Below, in pieces: positions 11,495 to 45,978 of a DNA stretch of 64,000 nucleotides. The DNA comes from Lysobacter sp. yr284 (GTDB lineage Bacteria; Pseudomonadota; Gammaproteobacteria; Xanthomonadales; Xanthomonadaceae): contig NZ_FNPT01000024.1 of assembly GCF_900107375.1 (NCBI RefSeq), positions 1-64,000 on the forward strand. The letters are read 5' to 3'. Position 1 is the first letter of the stretch, and every line of letters starts with the position of its first letter. The notes under the pieces were generated by a model. The model worked only from the letters and a program-made list of their open reading frames with translations. It had not been told where the DNA came from and ran no database searches. Both the position numbers and the translations under genes were made by a program.

Positions 11495-11813
11495 ACCCGC
11501 CCCGGCCCCGGACTTGTCCACAGGTCAGGGGCCATCGCCGCGCGCCGGCACGCGGCGGCGGTGGCCGCAATTGCCCCGGCTTTTATCCACAGCCTGCCCG
11601 GGTCGGCCGCACCCGGCGCATTCCCGCGCCGGGCAAGGCTTCGGCGCCGGCGCGCGGGCCGCGGAAACGACGGCCCGCGGGCGTTATCCACAAGCGGCTG
11701 GGGCTAAATATTTGACTTGAAGTCAAATGTAATTCGCCGAAAACCATATTTTTCGGCAAGGACGACCGGCCGACACTGCGCATCGCGAATCGCCGAATCC
11801 CTCGGCCCCCCGG
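11495..11813. other. Intergenic region with DnaA-box-like nonamers
   Basis: A 319-bp gap containing TTGTCCACA (11514-11522), two perfect TTATCCACA nonamers (11583-11591 and 11684-11692), and the two inverted repeats listed separately. No small gene is apparent. Confidence 0.75.
11710..11728. promoter_or_regulatory. Palindromic operator candidate upstream of MFS gene
   Basis: Perfect inverted repeat ATTTGACTT-G-AAGTCAAAT in a locally AT-rich patch 85 bp before the MFS start. A second repeat, GCCGAAAA/TTTTCGGC, sits at 11736-11757. Its size and symmetry fit a dimeric repressor or activator site; the cognate regulator is not encoded next to it. Confidence 0.55.
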
Positions 11814-15182: not shown

Positions 15183-15501
15183 TCGCCACCGAGCGACTGT
15201 ACGAGCGACGCAAGTCGCGACTGCGATACCGCAATACGACGCAACTGTGATGACGCGGTCGCGGCTCGCGCCGCTCCTACAGGTAGGTCACCAAGATCGT
15301 CGCGATCTTGAAGGCAGGATCATCGTGTTCGTTTTATCCACAGCCTTGCGCCGCTTCAACGCAGCGACTGTAGGAGCGACGCAAGTCGCGACCGCGACAC
15401 CACGCTTGCGAAGCAACTTCAGCGATAAGGTCGCGGCCTAACATCGCTTCTGCAATGAGACCACTCGCGGCTCGCGCTGCCGAACGGCGCGCATGCCGGC
15501 C
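15183..15501. other. Gene-free interval filled with family A repeats
   Basis: Convergent gap between the Old Yellow Enzyme and mnmE. It contains family A palindromes at 15199-15226 (degenerate), 15255-15280 (inverted) and 15370-15395, and a perfect TTATCCACA nonamer at 15334-15342. No gene is evident. Confidence 0.75.
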
Positions 15502-19507: not shown

Positions 19508-19824
19508 GACAGGCTCGCAAAGGTAACGACGAAAGTGGACCGCCGATTCTAGCGGCGCACCCGAGTCAGGGTCAAGCCTTTGTTCCGCCTGACATTGCCG
19601 ATCCGCGACGCGTGCCGCCAAAGCGGCGAGGGACAGCCTGTGCACGAGCTGTGCATGAACCTGTGGATTAGTCCTGTTCCGAACCCGGCCTCGGTGGTAG
19701 TCTGACCGACCCCCCGGCTTCCTGCGTCGCGATGTCCGCATCGTGCGTTGGGCCGCTTTCGTCCGTCGCCGGCCGATCCGCCGCCGCGGCCGACCGCATC
19801 ACGCATAAAGAAGACACGCTACAG
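19508..19824. other. rpmH-dnaA intergenic region
   Basis: A 317-bp divergent spacer. It contains the rpmH promoter and one near-consensus DnaA box, TGTGGATTA (19662-19670), which could mediate autoregulation of dnaA. The dnaA promoter itself is not obvious; TAGTCT around 19698 is a weak -10 candidate. Confidence 0.6.
19546..19575 (-). promoter_or_regulatory. Sigma-70 type promoter for rpmH
   Basis: Read on the minus strand: -35 TTGACC, an 18-base spacer, -10 TAGAAT. Transcription would start about 30 bases before the rpmH ATG. Confidence 0.75.
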
Positions 19825-21177
19825 ATGGAAGCCTGGCCCCGCTGCCTCGAACGCCTCGAAGCCGAATTCCCGGTCGAGGACGTGCATACCTGGTTGAAGC
19901 CGCTGCAGGCCGCGCAGCGCGACAGCAAGACCGTGCTCTACGCGCCCAACGCGTTCGTGGTCGAGCACGTGCGCGAGCGCTACCTCGCGCGCATCCGCGA
20001 GCTGCTGTCGTACTTCGCCGGCAGCGAGGACGTGAGCCTGGAAGTGGGTTCGTTGCCGCGTGCGCCGGGCAGCACCCAGCCGTTGCCGCTGGAAACCACC
20101 ACCAGCGCGGTGCGCCAGGCGCCGGCCGCGGTGACCGCGCCGGTCGAGCCGTTCCAGGGCAATCTCGATACGCATTACACCTTCGACAACTTCGTCGAAG
20201 GCCGCAGCAACCAGCTCGGCCGCGCCGCCGCGTGGCAGGCCGCGCAGAAGCCGGGCGAGCGCGCGCACAACCCGCTGCTGCTGTACGGGGGCACCGGCCT
20301 GGGCAAGACCCACCTGATGTTCGCCGCCGGCAACGCCATGCGCGACGCCAATCCGGCGATGCGGGTGATGTACCTGCGTTCCGAGCAGTTCTTCAGCGCG
20401 ATGATGAAAGCGCTGCAGGACAAGACCATGGATGCGTTCAAGCGCCAGTTCCAGCGCGTCGACGCGCTGCTGATCGACGACATCCAGTTCTTCGCCGGCA
20501 AGGACCGCACCCAGGAAGAGTTCTTCCACACCTTCAATGCGCTGTTCGACGGCAAGCAGCAGATCATCCTGACCTGCGACCGCTACCCGCGCGAGGTCGA
20601 GGGCCTGGAGCCGCGGCTGAAGTCGCGCCTGGCCTGGGGCCTGTCGGTGGCGATCGAGCCGCCGGACTTCGAGACCCGCGCCCAGATCGTGATCTCCAAG
20701 GCCAAGGAGCGCGGCGCCGCGATTCCCGAGGAAGTCGCCTTCCTGCTGGCCAAGAAGATGCGCTCGAACGTGCGCGATCTGGAAGGCGCGCTCAACACCC
20801 TGACCGCGCGCGCCAACTTCACCGGCCGCGCGATCACCGCCGAGTTCGCCCAGGAGACCCTGCGCGACCTGCTGCGCGCCCAGCAGCAGGCGATCGGCAT
20901 CCCCAACATCCAAAAGACCGTGGCAGACTACTACGGCCTCCAGATCAAGGACTTGTTGTCCAAGCGGCGTACGCGTTCGCTCGCCCGTCCGCGCCAGGTG
21001 GCCATGGCGCTGACCAAGGAGCTGACCGAACACTCGCTGCCGGAGATCGGCGATGCCTTCGCCGGTCGCGACCACACGACCGTCCTGCATGCCTGTCGTC
21101 AGATCCGCACCCTGATGGAAACCGACGGCAAGCTGCGGGAAGACTGGGACAAGCTGATCCGCAAGCTCAGCGAGTGA
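19825..21177 (+). CDS. dnaA: Chromosomal replication initiator protein DnaA
   Basis: AAA+ initiator of 450 aa that binds DnaA boxes and opens oriC. Domain I starts [20 protein letters not shown], as in xanthomonad DnaA. A linker spans about 75-115. Domain III has Walker A GGTGLGKT (155-162), Walker [10 protein letters not shown] and the AAA+ sensor region. Domain IV ends with the DNA-binding signature [15 protein letters not shown]. The frame is open 93 bases further upstream, but homology places the start at ATG 19825. The Shine-Dalgarno (AAAGAAGA) is weak. Confidence 0.98.
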
Positions 21178-21926
21178 TCCGCAGCGCCCGTTCGGCGGGC
21201 GCCGGCCTCGGCCTGGGATGCGCGGCAGCGCCGACGGCGCGATCCCGACATCGCGCTGCCGGCGGCGTCGCGCCGCCCGCGCCCAGCTGGCGCCGCATTC
21301 CGGCCTTCAGGCCGGCGAACCGGCCGCGACTCTCGCCAGGCGAACGGGCCAGCGGCTCGTTCGCGTAGGGCGGCTCCTGCCGGAATCCACGACGACGAGC
21401 GCAACGCAGCCGCACGGCCGTCCGGTCGCCGCGCTGCCGTCCGCGCTCATCCGTAGAGATCGCAGGACCGCGGCTGCAGGGCCGGGCGGGTGTTTCGTCG
21501 TTGGCGGTGCCGCAGGATCGGGCTGCATCCGACAGGCGCAAAGACGCACGCGCAAGCCGCGGGCGATCGGCGATCCAGTCCGGTACAACCCGGCCCCGGC
21601 GATCCGGGCCCCAAAAGGGGCACCGCGCCGCCGGTGGACACAAGGTAGTCGCTAAGTTGCTGATACGAAAGGCATAAGTTCGGGGACTAGGTTCGTACAA
21701 GCTGTGGATAAAGTTCAGGTCGCGTCGCCGCGCCGAGGTTATCCACAGGATCCACCTATCCTCCAGGGCCAGTTCTACCCGCGTTTGAAGTAGCTAAAAA
21801 CACTTGTAAATCATGGGTTTAAGTCGGTTCTCAACCGTTTTTCGCCGCTCCACCGCCACTAAGCTTTTGATTTATACATCTCTTTTGTAATTGGGCTTGC
21901 GCCCACCGACCGGCCAAGGGGTCCGC
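21178..21926. other. Presumed oriC region (dnaA-dnaN intergenic)
   Basis: Gene-free 749 bp. Two perfect DnaA boxes face opposite ways: TGTGGATAA 21703-21711 and TTATCCACA 21739-21747. They are followed by an AT-rich stretch, about 21783-21895, containing CTAAAAACACTTGTAAATC and TTTTGATTTATACATC, a plausible unwinding element and dnaN promoter area. The left 450 bp are GC-rich and show nothing clear. Box number is low for a gammaproteobacterial origin. Confidence 0.75.
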
Positions 21927-34049: not shown

Positions 34050-34079
34050 TCCGTTCGGAACCGACGCTTACCGTCGTGA

Positions 34080-34110
34080 AACGCCGCCCAGCTGGGCGGC
34101 GTTTTTTTTT
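34080..34110 (+). terminator. Intrinsic terminator of the tonB-exb operon
   Basis: AACGCCGCCC/GGGCGGCGTT hairpin followed by a run of nine T. Confidence 0.95.
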
Positions 34111-34141
34111 GCTGCCGCGGTCGCGAAGGCAGGCGTGGGTT

Positions 34142-34846
34142 TGTGGATAAACCGGGTTTGGCGGCGGGTTCTGGAGGATCGCGAACCCCCCTCTGCCTGG
34201 AGACGGCGCGCTATAAGGTCGGCTGGGGATAAGTGCCGGCGTGTGGATAAGCCGCAGCCGCGATGGCTTGCGGGTAATCGTGGAACATCCGATCCAGGAA
34301 GCGTCCCTGCGGCGCCGGCCAAGCTGGCGATATACAGCGTGTGGATAAGCCGGACTTCTGAAGAACTTCGGTGGTTTGTGGAACCTCGCCTGGAGGCGGC
34401 GCCTCACAAAGCCAGCTGCGCTGGGGACAAGTCGTGCTGTGTGGATAAACCGGATTTACGAAGAAGTCCGGTGGTTCGTGAAACCTCCCGCCTGGAGGTG
34501 GCGCCCCATGAAGCCGGCCGGGCTGGGGACCAGGCACGGTATGTGGATAAGCCGGACTCGCGGGGGATTCCGGACGATCGTGAAACAGACCGCCTGGAGA
34601 TGGCGCTAACAAGGCCGGGCAGGCTGGGGATAACTACCGGCATGTGGATAAGCCGGATTGCCGATGCCATCCAGACGCCGCGTCCCCGAGACAGCGCCCG
34701 GTACAGCCGCCCGAGCTGGGGATAAGTGACGGGCTGTGGATAAACCGGATTAGGTAAAGCCCCCGCGGGGCATGGGACGCCCTCGTTTGCACCGACGGGC
34801 AACCAGGACCATCAGGCTTGGGGATGCCCTCACCGACTGTGGACAA
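34142..34846 (+). repeat. Array of about 100-bp units each carrying a DnaA box
   Basis: Gene-free stretch between the second and third exbD. Perfect TGTGGATAA nonamers begin at 34142, 34242, 34340, 34440, 34542, 34643 and 34735, with TGTGGACAA at 34838; spacings are 92-103 bp. Five of them (34242, 34440, 34542, 34643, 34735) have a TGGGGA-type partner starting exactly 18 bp upstream. Units also share CCGGA after the box and GCCTGGAG in the middle. The copies are diverged, so the box and its phasing are kept better than the rest. Function is unknown; DnaA binding is inferred. Confidence 0.9.
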
Positions 34847-34954
34847 GCTTTGCCGACGTAGCTCGTATGCCCTGCCCCGCCGCGCGCTTGCGCGGCGCCC
34901 GGCGACAGGCCTAACGTGAAGACGGGTATCCCACCCCAAGGATGGAGGTAGCTC

Positions 34955-35359
<405 letters not shown>

Positions 35360-35402
35360 TCGCCTGCCCGCCGCGTCGGGCGCGCGTTGCGCCGACGCCA
35401 AC

Positions 35403-35435
35403 AAAACGGCCGCCGAATGGCGGCCGTTTTCTTTT
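35403..35435 (+). terminator. Intrinsic terminator after third exbD
   Basis: Perfect 12-bp stem AAAACGGCCGCC/GGCGGCCGTTTT with a GAAT loop, then CTTTT. The right arm is re-used as part of the tandem repeat that follows. Confidence 0.92.
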
Positions 35436-35635
35436 GCCGGCGTCGCTGTTTATCCACAGCGAAGATCGGAATGGCGGCCGTTTTCTTTTGCCGGGCGTCG
35501 TCGTTTATCCACAGCGAAGATCGGAATGGTGGCCGTTTTCTTTTGTCGGGCGTCGCTGTTTATCCACAGCGAAGATTGGAGCGGCGGTCGTTTTCTTCTA
35601 TCGGGCGTTGCCGTTTATCCACAGCGAGGGATCGG
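35416..35635 (+). repeat. Four 54-56 bp tandem repeats with DnaA boxes
   Basis: Four head-to-tail copies, starting at 35416, 35470, 35525 and 35580, of a unit made of the terminator right arm plus T-tract (GGCGGCCGTTTTCTTTT), a GCCGGGCGTCG segment and GTTTATCCACAGCGAAGATCGG. The TTATCCACA nonamers start at 35450, 35505, 35560 and 35615, exactly 55 bp apart. The first three units are nearly identical; the fourth is diverged. Confidence 0.95.
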
Positions 35636-37200
35636 AAGCTAGACATGTGCGGTGCGGGATTGGATCGGAGTCGCGCGCTCGCACGTTCGCTGCAATGCCC
35701 ACCTTCCTCGCTGTGCGGCGCCCAGCACGCGACTGCGAGACTTATGCACAGCGCAAAACATCGCGCCTGGCGTCGTGCGATCGGTATCGGCGTGCGATGT
35801 TCGGCCTGCGTTGCCGTGGATCTATGTGTGCCGAAGCGGTTCGCGCCACCAGACGAGGTTATCCACATCTGCATGGGCGACATGCGCGTGGACAGCGACA
35901 CATGCTGCCCGCGCGATGCTGGCCGACAACGCCTGCGAAGCGACTTTTCCACAGCCACGATGTGCTGCGCGACACGCTCGCAATGGATTTGTCATGGAGA
36001 AACGGTTCGCCACACGCTCGCCGGTCGCACCGGGTTTCGGTTGTGGGCAGCAGCGGCGGCGCCACCGAAAATCGAAGCCAACCGCAGGGTTCGTTCCGAT
36101 GCTTGTGGATAGAAGTACAGGCGAACGGCGATTCCATCCGGCGGCGCAGCCGCGACCCTGGCGAGTCGTCCACACACGCAGGTATGGCGTCGCGCCGTCG
36201 ATCTCATCGATCTATCGTCGGCATGTCTCCGCGACCGCGGCATCCAAGCAGTTGTCCACATCGGTCCGTGCGTGTCGACAGGCCCGAGAAACGCCTGAAA
36301 TTAAGCGTTTTCATAAACGGCCCGAAAAACTTATGACAAGACTTGTCCACAAGATCGCGCGAACCCGGAGGTCTGTGGACGAAGCGCGCATGGCTGCGAC
36401 GTGAGCGGCGCATCGCAGCGCGCGGCGGGCATTTGTCCGAATCTGGCGTGACCGCGACGGTGCCGGCTCTCGCCCGTGCATGCGCGGCGATGCCGGGCAT
36501 GGTTGTCCACAGGATGTTGCGGGCCGCATCGTGGCGCGGTCTGGGTAGGGCTGTCGCGACGTCGCAGGCCGTCGCACTCCGCGCGGCCGACCGATGATCT
36601 GCTGCGCAAAACATGCCTCGCGCGCTCGATTGGCTACGCGTTCGTCCACAGGCTGCCCGGCCACGCGCGCATCGACGCGGCGGCACGCAATCCTTGGTTG
36701 CTGGCCGCGACGAGCGCCGTTGCTTATCCACAAGCGCCGGGCCATACACTCGCTGCGCCGGCGCCACGGCTTGCGATGCGAGTGGGCTCCGGACTTGTCC
36801 ACAAGGCGAGATTCGACGATCCCTTGAGCTGCGATCGCGATGCGCGCCGCGCCGGCGCGAAGGATCGCAAGCGGCTTCAGTCGTGCAGGGCGGATGGACG
36901 AGGGCGCACTTCCCCAAGCGCATCGGCGCCTTGAGCGGACCTCGCGCGAACGCTACGCATGATCGCGCTTGTCCACAGGGCGGGTGAGCGGCCGGCCGGA
37001 GTCTCTACGCCGACCTTGGCGGAGATCCGAAGCAATCCACAGGTCGCAGGTCCGCGATCCGAATGACATGGGCGCCAGCTGCGGTGAAGAACGGAAGCGA
37101 TGCGGCGCCGGAGCGTCGCGCGCTTATCCACACACCATCGCGAGCAGGACGACAGAGAACCGGCGTAGCGACAGTGCGAAGCCGGCGCCGGCGCGAACGC
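35636..37200. other. Long gene-free region with scattered DnaA boxes
   Basis: About 1.57 kb with no gene I can support. Perfect TTATCCACA occurs at 35859, 36724 and 37124, and TTGTCCACA at 36252, 36343, 36503, 36795 and 36969. All are in the orientation opposite to the array left of exbD3. Looser relatives are TTTTCCACA near 35946 and TGTGGATAG at 36104. Overlapping frames up to about 460 codons exist but encode no recognisable protein. Confidence 0.75.
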
Positions 37201-37956
37201 TCAGCGAGCGCCGGCGATCACCGCCAGGTAGCCGCGCACGGTCGCATCCAGGCCGTCGTACAAGGCCTCGCCGATCAGCGCGTGGCCGATCGACACTTCC
37301 AGCACGTTCGGCACCGCGCGCAGGAACGCGCCGAGGTTGGCCTGGCTGAGGTCGTGGCCGGCGTTGATCCCAAGGCCGGCGGCCTCGGCGCGGCGCGCGG
37401 CGTCGGCGAAGGCGGCCAGCGCCGCGCCGGCATCGCCGGCAGCGAAGGCCTCGGCGTAGGGGCCTGTGTACAACTCGACCCGCTGCGCGCCGAGTTCGGC
37501 CGCGCGCTCGATGCCGTCGCGGTCGGCATCGGCGAATACGCTGATGCGGCAGCCGAGCTCGCGCAGTTCGGCGATGCGCGGGCGCAGTGCGTCGGCGTCG
37601 CGCTGGAAGTCGAAGCCGTGGTCGGAGGTGAGCTGGTCGTCGCCGTCGGGCACCAGGGTCGCCTGCACCGGCCGCGTCCGCCGGCACAGTTCGAACATGC
37701 CCGGATAGCCCGGGCGCGGCGGCGCGAACGGATTGCCTTCGATGTTGAACTCGACGCCGCGCGCGTGGGCCAGTTCGGCCAGCGCGTACACGTCGTAGTC
37801 GCGGATATGGCGCGCGTCGGGACGCGGGTGCACGGTGATGCCGTGCGCGCCGGCGTCCAGGCAGGCGCGCGCGGCGCGGACCACGTCGGGCTCGGCGCCG
37901 CCGCGCGAGTTGCGCAGCACGGCGATCTTGTTGACGTTGACGCTCAGGACGGTCAT
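37201..37956 (-). CDS. pdxJ: Pyridoxine 5'-phosphate synthase
   Basis: Last step of the DXP-dependent vitamin B6 pathway: condenses 3-amino-2-oxopropyl phosphate with deoxyxylulose phosphate. The 251-aa TIM barrel shows [44 protein letters not shown] and [13 protein letters not shown], with the phosphate-binding [11 protein letters not shown] near the end. ATG 37956 is preferred over the TTG two codons upstream. Transcription points into the box-rich region. Confidence 0.97.
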
Positions 37957-38058
37957 GGCCAAAGCCTAGCGCGCGCCGCGGACCGCGGCGAGTACGCAAT
38001 CTGCCGGCGCGGCGAGGGCCGGCGCGGCATGTGGAAGAGGAACCGGCCGCGGCGCGGC

Positions 38059-41247: not shown

Positions 41248-41696
41248 GCCCACGGCGCTTTTTTGTAGGAGCGGCGCGAGCCGCGACCGCGACAGCGCAC
41301 AAACGCCGGAAGCCGTCGCTGGCCCGGCGATGCAGCGCATCGCAAGGTCCGACGCGAGCCCGCAGCCCCGCGGTCGCGGCTTGCGCCGCTCCTACAAGGG
41401 TAGCCAGAACCCTGTCGGCGTCGCGCTGCGTGGCGAGAAACAGAACGCCGGCAAGCTTGGGGATAACTAGTGGGCAGCGCTGTGCGCAAACCTGCGCAAA
41501 GCGATGGCTGGCGCGGGTTTTCCTGAACGGGGCCGGCTGGGGATAACTGCTGTCGATAAGGCTGAATGCGTTTATCCGCAGGCGCAGTTGTCCACACCCC
41601 CGGCCCCGATTCTTATCCACAGGCGTGGCTGAGCGCTTCAGCTGCCGCGCGGACCTGTCGCGTCCGCTGCGACGCCGCCGGCTTAGGCTGGGACGC
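41248..41696. other. Gene-free interval with repeats and DnaA-like boxes
   Basis: A 449-bp gap. Two family A palindromes lie at 41265-41290 and, inverted, at 41370-41395. To their right are TGGGGATAA twice (around 41460 and 41541), TTGTCCACA at 41588-41596 and a perfect TTATCCACA at 41613-41621. No gene is supported. Confidence 0.7.
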
Positions 41697-45534: not shown

Positions 45535-45978
45535 GCGGCGCCGTCGTGGCGGACGCGCCGGCGGGTTCGCGCGGGCGAATCGCTGGCCGAACCCGGCCGG
45601 AACTGGCCGACTCTGGCCGCAGCGCCGCCGCGGTGGCACGCGCGTGCGGCGTGGCCGACAATGCGGCCTGCGCGCCGCGGACCGGGCGCGCGGCGGTCGG
45701 ATCGCGATCGCCGGTTTTCATTGGCACCGCGCGGGGCGAAAGCGCGTTCGCCGGGATGCGCCTGGCCAGGCGCGCGCTTGTCCACAGCGTCCCGTCGAAT
45801 CCCCGCAGATCCACAACGCGCTCGGCGCACGCGCATCGGCCGAGCACGCTTACGTAAGGACGCCCCCGCAAGGATGCCCACGTCTCCGCTGTCCCCCGCC
45901 CTGCCGCCCGCTTCCGCGGCGATGCGCGACGCATCGCGCCGGGCCGTCCGCGCCTCCCTCTCCCTGCAAGGATTCCGC
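45535..45978. other. Gene-free interval upstream of LprI-like genes
   Basis: A 444-bp gap, GC-rich, with one TTGTCCACA (45778-45786). An in-frame ATG at 45661 would lengthen the next protein with Arg-rich sequence lacking a signal peptide, which I judge spurious. Confidence 0.55.

Follow-up and report, generated by a model that had tools for sequence, protein, structure and literature searches.

Why should a bacterial chromosome carry, a short distance from its origin of replication, two intergenic regions crowded with what appear to be binding sites for the initiator protein DnaA? The question is posed by a stretch of 64,000 nucleotides from Lysobacter sp. yr284 (hereafter, the window; G000:C13:1-64000 of a genome, G000, of 6.25 Mb), in which genes run in the order mnmE, yidC, dnaA (19732-21177, + strand, by gene call), dnaN, recF, gyrB, tonB, exbB, exbD1, exbD2, exbD3 and then convergent pdxJ, the names tonB and exbB having been assigned by eye from translations. 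We refer to TGTGGAYAA as the strict box and to TGTGNAWAA as the E. coli definition. The reading that we favour, with a probability of about 0.64, is that the strict boxes between exbD2 and pdxJ form a reservoir that titrates DnaA at a distance of 12-15 kb from oriC and that was gained in one Lysobacter clade.

A regular array within a larger cluster

Array A (34142-34846, + strand, by motif scan) lies in the gap between exbD2 and exbD3 and consists of eight DnaA boxes in units of about 100 bp: TGTGGATAA occurs seven times (at 34142, 34242, 34340, 34440, 34542, 34643 and 34735, all on the + strand), and the eighth box, at 34838 (+), is TGTGGACAA. Successive spacings are 100, 98, 100, 102, 101, 92 and 103 bp, and we recovered the counts and spacings given by a first-pass annotation of this DNA, which had described seven perfect boxes and one variant in a single orientation, 92-103 bp apart. 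The eight strict boxes of this gap compare with a mean of 0.007 in 300 shuffles. Also as annotated, a TGGGGA-type partner stands exactly 18 bp to the 5′ side of the box in five of the eight units (34224, 34422, 34524, 34625 and 34717, + strand); the eighth unit has such a partner 19 bp upstream, and similar motifs occur in two relatives, G019 and G016, at distances that vary (18 and 19 bp in the former, 16 bp in the latter).

The geometry that had been read into this arrangement did not survive. Since 18 bp amounts to 1.71 helical turns, the suggestion that box and partner occupy nearly the same face of the helix is wrong, and the array is not phased, in that its unit spacings show no helical phasing. 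What does hold is that the boxes were retained while the remainder of each unit diverged: mean pairwise identity among units is 0.97 in the box, but 0.54 in the partner and 0.37 in the other upstream columns, and downstream of the box it is 0.54 over the next ten columns and 0.37 after that.

Array A belongs to a 3-kb cluster of 21 strict boxes (34142-37132, between exbD2 and pdxJ), of which it is the less conserved part. The 13 strict boxes beyond the array are all on the − strand (35213-37132), one of them, at 35213, inside exbD3 (an ExbD/TolR family gene at 34955-35359, + strand) and 12 past it. Four of these 12 belong to array B (35415-35637, from repeat and motif scans), in which a 55-bp unit carrying TTATCCACA is present four times, with boxes on the − strand at 35450, 35505, 35560 and 35615; the other eight (− strand, by motif scan) are without a repeat unit and lie at 35859, 36252, 36343, 36503, 36724, 36795, 36969 and 37124. 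The boxes at 36252 and 36343, with conserved stretches around them, make up a core element (36247-36473). On its right the cluster is bordered by pdxJ (37201-37962, − strand), which is convergent with exbD3.

Of the 48 strict boxes in the genome, 30 are in the window, and all 30 lie at 11.5-45.8 kb, a 35-kb span equal to 0.6 centisome; in 100 dinucleotide shuffles the window had a mean of 0.27 and a maximum of 2. By the gene calls of this analysis 28 of the 30 are non-coding, in a region (11-46 kb) of which 22% is non-coding. There are 24 copies of TGTGGATAA in the 6.25 Mb, 20 of them in the window and 14 of those at 34.1-37.1 kb, and TGTGGACAA, which we count as a box because in genome G003 it replaces the TGTGGATAA of the others in the oriC pair, likewise has 24 copies genome-wide. 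By the E. coli definition, 22 of the 43 boxes of this genome are in the window.

Outside the 21-box cluster, another nine strict boxes are found at most 25 kb from oriC, including two inside oriC itself. Three form a small second cluster on the left of oriC, at a distance of 10 kb (11514-11692, − strand), and at the corresponding place (11514-11760) each of the four closest relatives has five (−,−,+,+,−). The remainder, all on the − strand by motif scan, are a single box between an FMN oxidoreductase gene and mnmE (15334-15342), two boxes 25 bp apart just before a radical-SAM gene at 41625 (41588-41621), and a single box within a gene at 45661 (45778-45786). Next to the second cluster, ahead of an MFS gene, is a palindromic stretch that is rich in AT.

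Some other repeats and boxes were seen along the way. Nine perfect copies of the hexanucleotide AACGGC occupy positions 358-411 of the window. A head-to-head pair, TTATCCACA-N5-TGTGGATAA, with 14 bp from start to start, stands at G000:C23:13750-13772, some 115 bp ahead of a gene with a match to priA (a context taken from G000); the pair is present in 15 of the 15 genus genomes listed in full, G015-G019 being outside this count, and it may be a DARS-like site or a means by which DnaA controls priA. Far from oriC, TGTGGACAA is repeated at a spacing of about 200 bp in G008:C2:1579385-1581358, and repeats of this spacing also occur in G005:C12, G006:C1 (5.59 and 5.65 Mb) and G016:C1 (5.23 and 5.30 Mb), possibly as parts of repeat-protein genes (GTG GAC AAG).

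Given that array A is upstream of exbD3, the boxes might serve in DnaA-dependent control of exbD3 or pdxJ transcription, or some protein other than DnaA might read the same 9-mer. We hold either to be very improbable: of the 21 boxes, 12 stand where exbD3 and pdxJ converge, between their 3′ ends, and no promoter is expected in such a place; nor was any sigma-70-like promoter found in 33.9-37.4 kb, where 0.6 would be expected from a scan that covers GC-rich genomes poorly. Moreover, the same 9-mer pair marks oriC, and domain IV of DnaA is conserved. In this genome it matches PDB 1j1v (E 2.5e-36), which we take to be domain IV of E. coli DnaA with a DnaA box, and, its domain IV being standard, this DnaA is predicted to bind TGTGGAYAA.

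Terminator-like signals are present in the region. A hairpin with a 12-pair stem and a T tail lies 3′ of exbD2 (34078-34112, + strand), and array A begins beyond it; across the region two terminator-like sites were found against 2.9 in shuffles, such that only the strength of the 34078 hairpin speaks in its favour. An inverted repeat with a T-rich tail, 3′ of exbD3 (35400-35436, + strand), is terminator-like by eye but was not called by the terminator scan.

Distribution and turnover of the boxes

We compared 20 genomes of the genus, that of yr284 included. In five of them (G000, G019, G016, G006 and G005; hereafter, the clade, to which all series of five values refer in this order) the exbD3-pdxJ gap holds 12, 13, 14, 15 and 23 strict boxes, where shuffle means are at most 0.017; in the 15 other members the gap has no box in 14 and one in G011, that of G002 being cut by a contig end. 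The corresponding counts for the exbD2-exbD3 gap are 8, 3, 2, 0 and 0 in the clade and 0 in the other 15. It is the exbD3-pdxJ gap, and not array A, that is the conserved part of the locus. The first-pass annotation had taken array A as the unit of interest, had proposed a search between the exbD genes of related genomes, and had regarded absence from close relatives as evidence against its reading. Boxes at the site of array A turned out to be present in 3 of 20 genomes, the gap being empty in two of the four nearest relatives and in all 15 other members; absence from close relatives is thus a fact for array A but not for the neighbouring exbD3-pdxJ cluster.

On a protein tree of DnaN and GyrB from 18 genomes, the five clade genomes occupy one side of a branch (support 100/99), so a single gain suffices to account for the cluster. 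The region fetched around dnaA has 30, 32, 35, 30 and 38 strict boxes in the clade versus 1-4 in 13 others, the loci of G002 and G007 being short and without dnaA; the counts are approximate in that the fetched regions range from 30 to 120 kb. When this region is subtracted from the genome total, 18, 24, 23, 26 and 26 strict boxes are left in the clade and 17, 21 and 26 in G003, G009 and G008, the only non-clade genomes in this count; with backgrounds so alike, the excess of the clade lies at oriC. One result runs the other way. By the E. coli definition, the clade has no genome-wide excess (43, 41, 50, 40 and 40, versus 45, 54 and 20 in G003, G009 and G014), and what differs is placement, with 22, 23, 29, 16 and 16 boxes near dnaA versus 5, 2 and 2 in the same three genomes.

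Regular arrays of the array A type are rare in the order and class samples that we scanned. At the level of the order, a two-box pattern matched 18 of 398 genomes, a sample without the four clade relatives, with nine matches in our own genome, three in G066 and at most two in the others. At the level of the class, a three-box pattern that the window contains matched our own genome only (1 of 369), and one that the window itself fails matched 1 of 369, with none in our own genome, and is uninformative. Because these patterns fix both spacing and strand, they would miss clusters of irregular layout, which the clade relatives have. The G066 genome, which represents another genus of the same family, has at G066:C17:49037-49402, on a different contig from dnaA, three whole units and one partial unit of about 119 bp, each with TTATCCACA (altered in the partial unit), TTGTCCACA and TGTGCACAA.

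Within the clade, the locus looks like a case in which the number of boxes is kept while their positions and the spacer sequence turn over. Between genomes, only 4-8 of 12-15 boxes stand at an aligned place. Box columns nevertheless exceed the remaining columns in identity in all 10 pairwise alignments (0.59-0.80 vs. 0.46-0.65). Both observations are to be taken with caution, in that overall identity is 66% between G000 and G019 but 47-54% for the other pairs, and most of the alignments are near noise. An unbiased count of 9-mers in the exbD3-pdxJ gaps of the five genomes places TGTGGACAA first (53) and TGTGGATAA third (24), an overlapping word being second. The tandem units that carry boxes, of 100 bp and 55 bp in G000 and of 157 bp in G016, are three in number and have no mutual similarity. 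In G006, three boxes lie 47-48 bp apart and are not repeats. The G016 array (G016:C1:1080452-1080930, to the right of pdxJ) has four boxes at 156-157 bp, a spacing not seen in the other four clade genomes; three of its four units are near-identical and also hold a long REP-like inverted repeat.

Such repeats raise the prospect that the boxes are mere passengers, multiplied by the functionless spread of sequences that happen to hold them. Arrays A and B and three of the four G016 units are tandem repeats, the G016 unit resembles a REP element in its inverted repeat, and only three of 20 genomes have boxes at the array A site. If neutral expansion were the whole explanation, however, several observations would be hard to accommodate: box columns in array A are 0.97 identical against 0.37-0.54 for the rest of the unit; the 77 boxes of the exbD3-pdxJ gap in the five genomes have flanks without a consensus, which is not what the spreading of one repeat unit would leave; one and the same 9-mer is shared by the three dissimilar units, and the boxes 47-48 bp apart in G006 are no repeats; and the box excess is located at oriC. 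Neutral expansion is therefore an account to which we give very little credence, though slightly more than to transcriptional control.

The spacing of the boxes contains a hint that they are placed singly, which G016 does not show. Pairs of strict gap boxes less than 45 bp apart number 0, 0, 1, 0 and 1, where null means are 2.4, 2.8, 2.7, 3.6 and 7.3 (P = 0.047, 0.028, 0.19, 0.008 and 0.0004 for the deficit), in tests that shared ancestry and tandem arrays make mutually dependent. Counting looser TGTGGA cores as well brings out pairs 6-39 bp apart in all five clade genomes, and array A would have close pairs too if its TGGGGA partners bind DnaA. Helical phasing of the gap boxes was considered and rejected, the 10.5-bp resultant being non-significant in five of five genomes (p = 0.051 to 0.81). 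Direct observation covers which sites exist, how many there are and where they lie, the fact that the cluster is confined to one clade, and the turnover of positions with number retained.

The origin and the core element

The dnaA-dnaN gap (21640-21890) is most likely oriC, judging from its inverted boxes at 21703(+) and 21739(−), 36 bp apart, and an AT-rich stretch at 21783-21842. The cluster is 12-15 kb from it, in line with the roughly 15 kb that had been given for array A. Among the 18 genomes with this gap in hand, the strict 36-bp inverted pair occurs in 10 and a 60-mer of 60-70% AT in all; the five clade genomes keep both the box pair and the AT-rich stretch, and two of the genomes that fail the strict test, G014 and G003, have the oriC pair with one altered box each.

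Could the cluster itself be a second origin, or the outlying arm of a bipartite oriC, at which bound DnaA unwinds the DNA or from which it loops to dnaA-dnaN? The uncorrected cumulative GC skew has its window minimum at about 32-35 kb but is confounded by coding strand; the coding-corrected skew of two complete relatives, G016 and G006, shows a basin that is flat between about −56 and +48 kb relative to dnaN. A second origin is compatible with this basin, whose minimum falls 27 kb leftward of the dnaA-dnaN pair in each of the two genomes. The AT-richest 60 bp of the exbD3-pdxJ gap reach 62% AT in G000 and G019, nearly the 65 and 67% found at dnaA-dnaN, but 53, 50 and 53% in the other three clade genomes, compared with 68, 67 and 65% at dnaA-dnaN. 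Since the dnaA-dnaN pair and AT-rich stretch persist in all five clade genomes, and across the genus in 10 and 18 of 18, respectively, whereas the cluster, of which an origin's genus-wide presence would be expected, is found in 5 of 20 genomes and missing in 15, we judge a second origin improbable. As a means of placing oriC more finely, GC skew was abandoned because the basin is flat, and KOPS-like motifs were too few to help.

The core element (36247-36473) presents a separate problem. Its conservation reaches past its boxes in all five clade genomes, and a search of the 20 genomes located it at the cluster locus in these five only, the matches elsewhere being a weak partial one in G014 (E 5e-4) and one in our own genome (E 4e-4). 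A structured RNA was rejected as an explanation: fold z-scores are −1.6, −1.1, 0.4, −2.1 and 0.0 on the + strand and −0.5, −0.9, 0.5, −2.2 and 0.8 on the other, the covariation term does not favour structure, and Rfam gave no match in the 64-kb window.

The core could instead be the active part of a datA proper, in which a DnaA-IHF complex speeds the hydrolysis of DnaA-bound ATP and the other boxes act as feeders. This would fit with a core that is present throughout the clade, its boxes flanking a variable stretch, and with the finding of Hda in 20 of 20 genomes, which indicates that control through the ATP state exists. However, a scan for the well-known IHF consensus found no exact match in either gap in the five genomes (weaker sites may exist), and the same scan does find a site in the dnaA-dnaN gap in 14 of 18 genomes, including all of the clade. 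PMC5835720 describes datA as requiring an IHF site between its essential boxes, and the number of boxes here is far above what that mechanism needs, making a datA proper unlikely. The universal presence of Hda also disposes of its loss as the reason for the cluster, which would add to DnaA-ATP control and replaces no lost regulator.

A putative titration reservoir and its known counterparts

As the first-pass annotation had proposed, a reservoir of DnaA boxes near oriC with a role of the titration type is the best explanation of the locus, if a putative one. A layout of 21 sites in 3 kb, mostly non-coding and near oriC, suits initiator titration. Each TGTGGAYAA would bind DnaA, and before initiation the 21 sites, together with the nine others within 25 kb of oriC, would absorb the newly made protein; once these sites are full, free DnaA would reach a level at which the weaker sites of oriC are loaded. 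As the reservoir would be copied soon after firing, the number of sites would double early, free DnaA would fall, and re-initiation would be held back. Binding by DnaA, titration and an effect on timing are what we infer from the arrangement of the sites. Whether bacteria time replication by the counting of DnaA on chromosomal boxes has been in dispute for some 30 years. A counting model of initiation is set out in PMC10977104 and initiator titration is argued for a broader box excess in E. coli (Olivi 2025, PMC12371093).

Several points weigh against titration. Array A, the part originally reported, is missing in two of four close relatives, and 15 other members of the genus manage without the cluster. 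The boxes of arrays A and B are copies and not independent gains, and the conservation of the core beyond its boxes is something that titration alone leaves unexplained. Furthermore, the main effect of datA itself is now held to be hydrolysis and not titration (PMC5835720).

A more specific and more tentative version, possible but short of probable, is that the clade built an origin-coupled DnaA capacitor: extra strict boxes concentrated within 25 kb of oriC, mostly spaced for single binding and not for an orisome, that would hold their number constant while single gains and expansions of unrelated repeats replace individual boxes. If true, the capacitor would realise in nature the idealised model of initiator titration, and sister species that lack it would be its built-in controls. 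The DnaA boxes of E. coli are many, scattered and not cleanly removable. Here, a large share of the strict boxes of the genome is in two gaps within 3 kb, deletable in one or two steps, so deletion or transplantation of the cluster would test titration directly, and sister species lack it naturally.

We found no report of this Lysobacter locus in the open-access papers searched, but clusters with related properties are known. In Bacillus subtilis, consensus DnaA boxes also cluster outside but close to oriC, and deletion of all six clusters led to early initiation (Okumura 2012, as cited in PMC5295017), although PMC5295017 also plays down the role of such clusters; unlike those of Bacillus, the boxes in Lysobacter are at one 21-box locus of 3 kb, accompanied by smaller satellites no more than 25 kb from oriC, are specific to a clade, and have a putative function. 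DnaA boxes near oriC in Streptomyces coelicolor are said to repress untimely initiation (Smulczyk-Krawczyszyn 2006, as cited in PMC4585315), and ours are similarly close to oriC. Like E. coli datA, which is thought to lower free active DnaA, the cluster is a non-coding DnaA-box locus. As described in PMC5835720, however, datA has two consensus boxes and four with one misfit, depends on an IHF site and works chiefly through the hydrolysis of ATP. Here there are 21 strict boxes, and neither gap contains an exact IHF consensus in any of the five genomes.

The DARS-like role that the first-pass annotation had also raised is not borne out: a DARS has three DnaA boxes in a core of about 70 bp, a size taken from the DARS of ColE1 in PMC5835720, whereas in 34.1-37.2 kb the tightest group of three, counting strict boxes only, covers 119 bp. 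In E. coli, where a broad definition gives 902 ± 77 motifs per genome, boxes are enriched near oriC over several centisomes and have been proposed to act in titration (Olivi 2025, PMC12371093); in our genome, by contrast, 30 of 48 strict boxes lie within 35 kb, or 0.6 centisome. Clusters of DnaA boxes outside oriC that restrain initiation have been reported from Bacillus and Streptomyces, and datA is known from E. coli; the Lysobacter cluster is an unusually dense, origin-concentrated variant.
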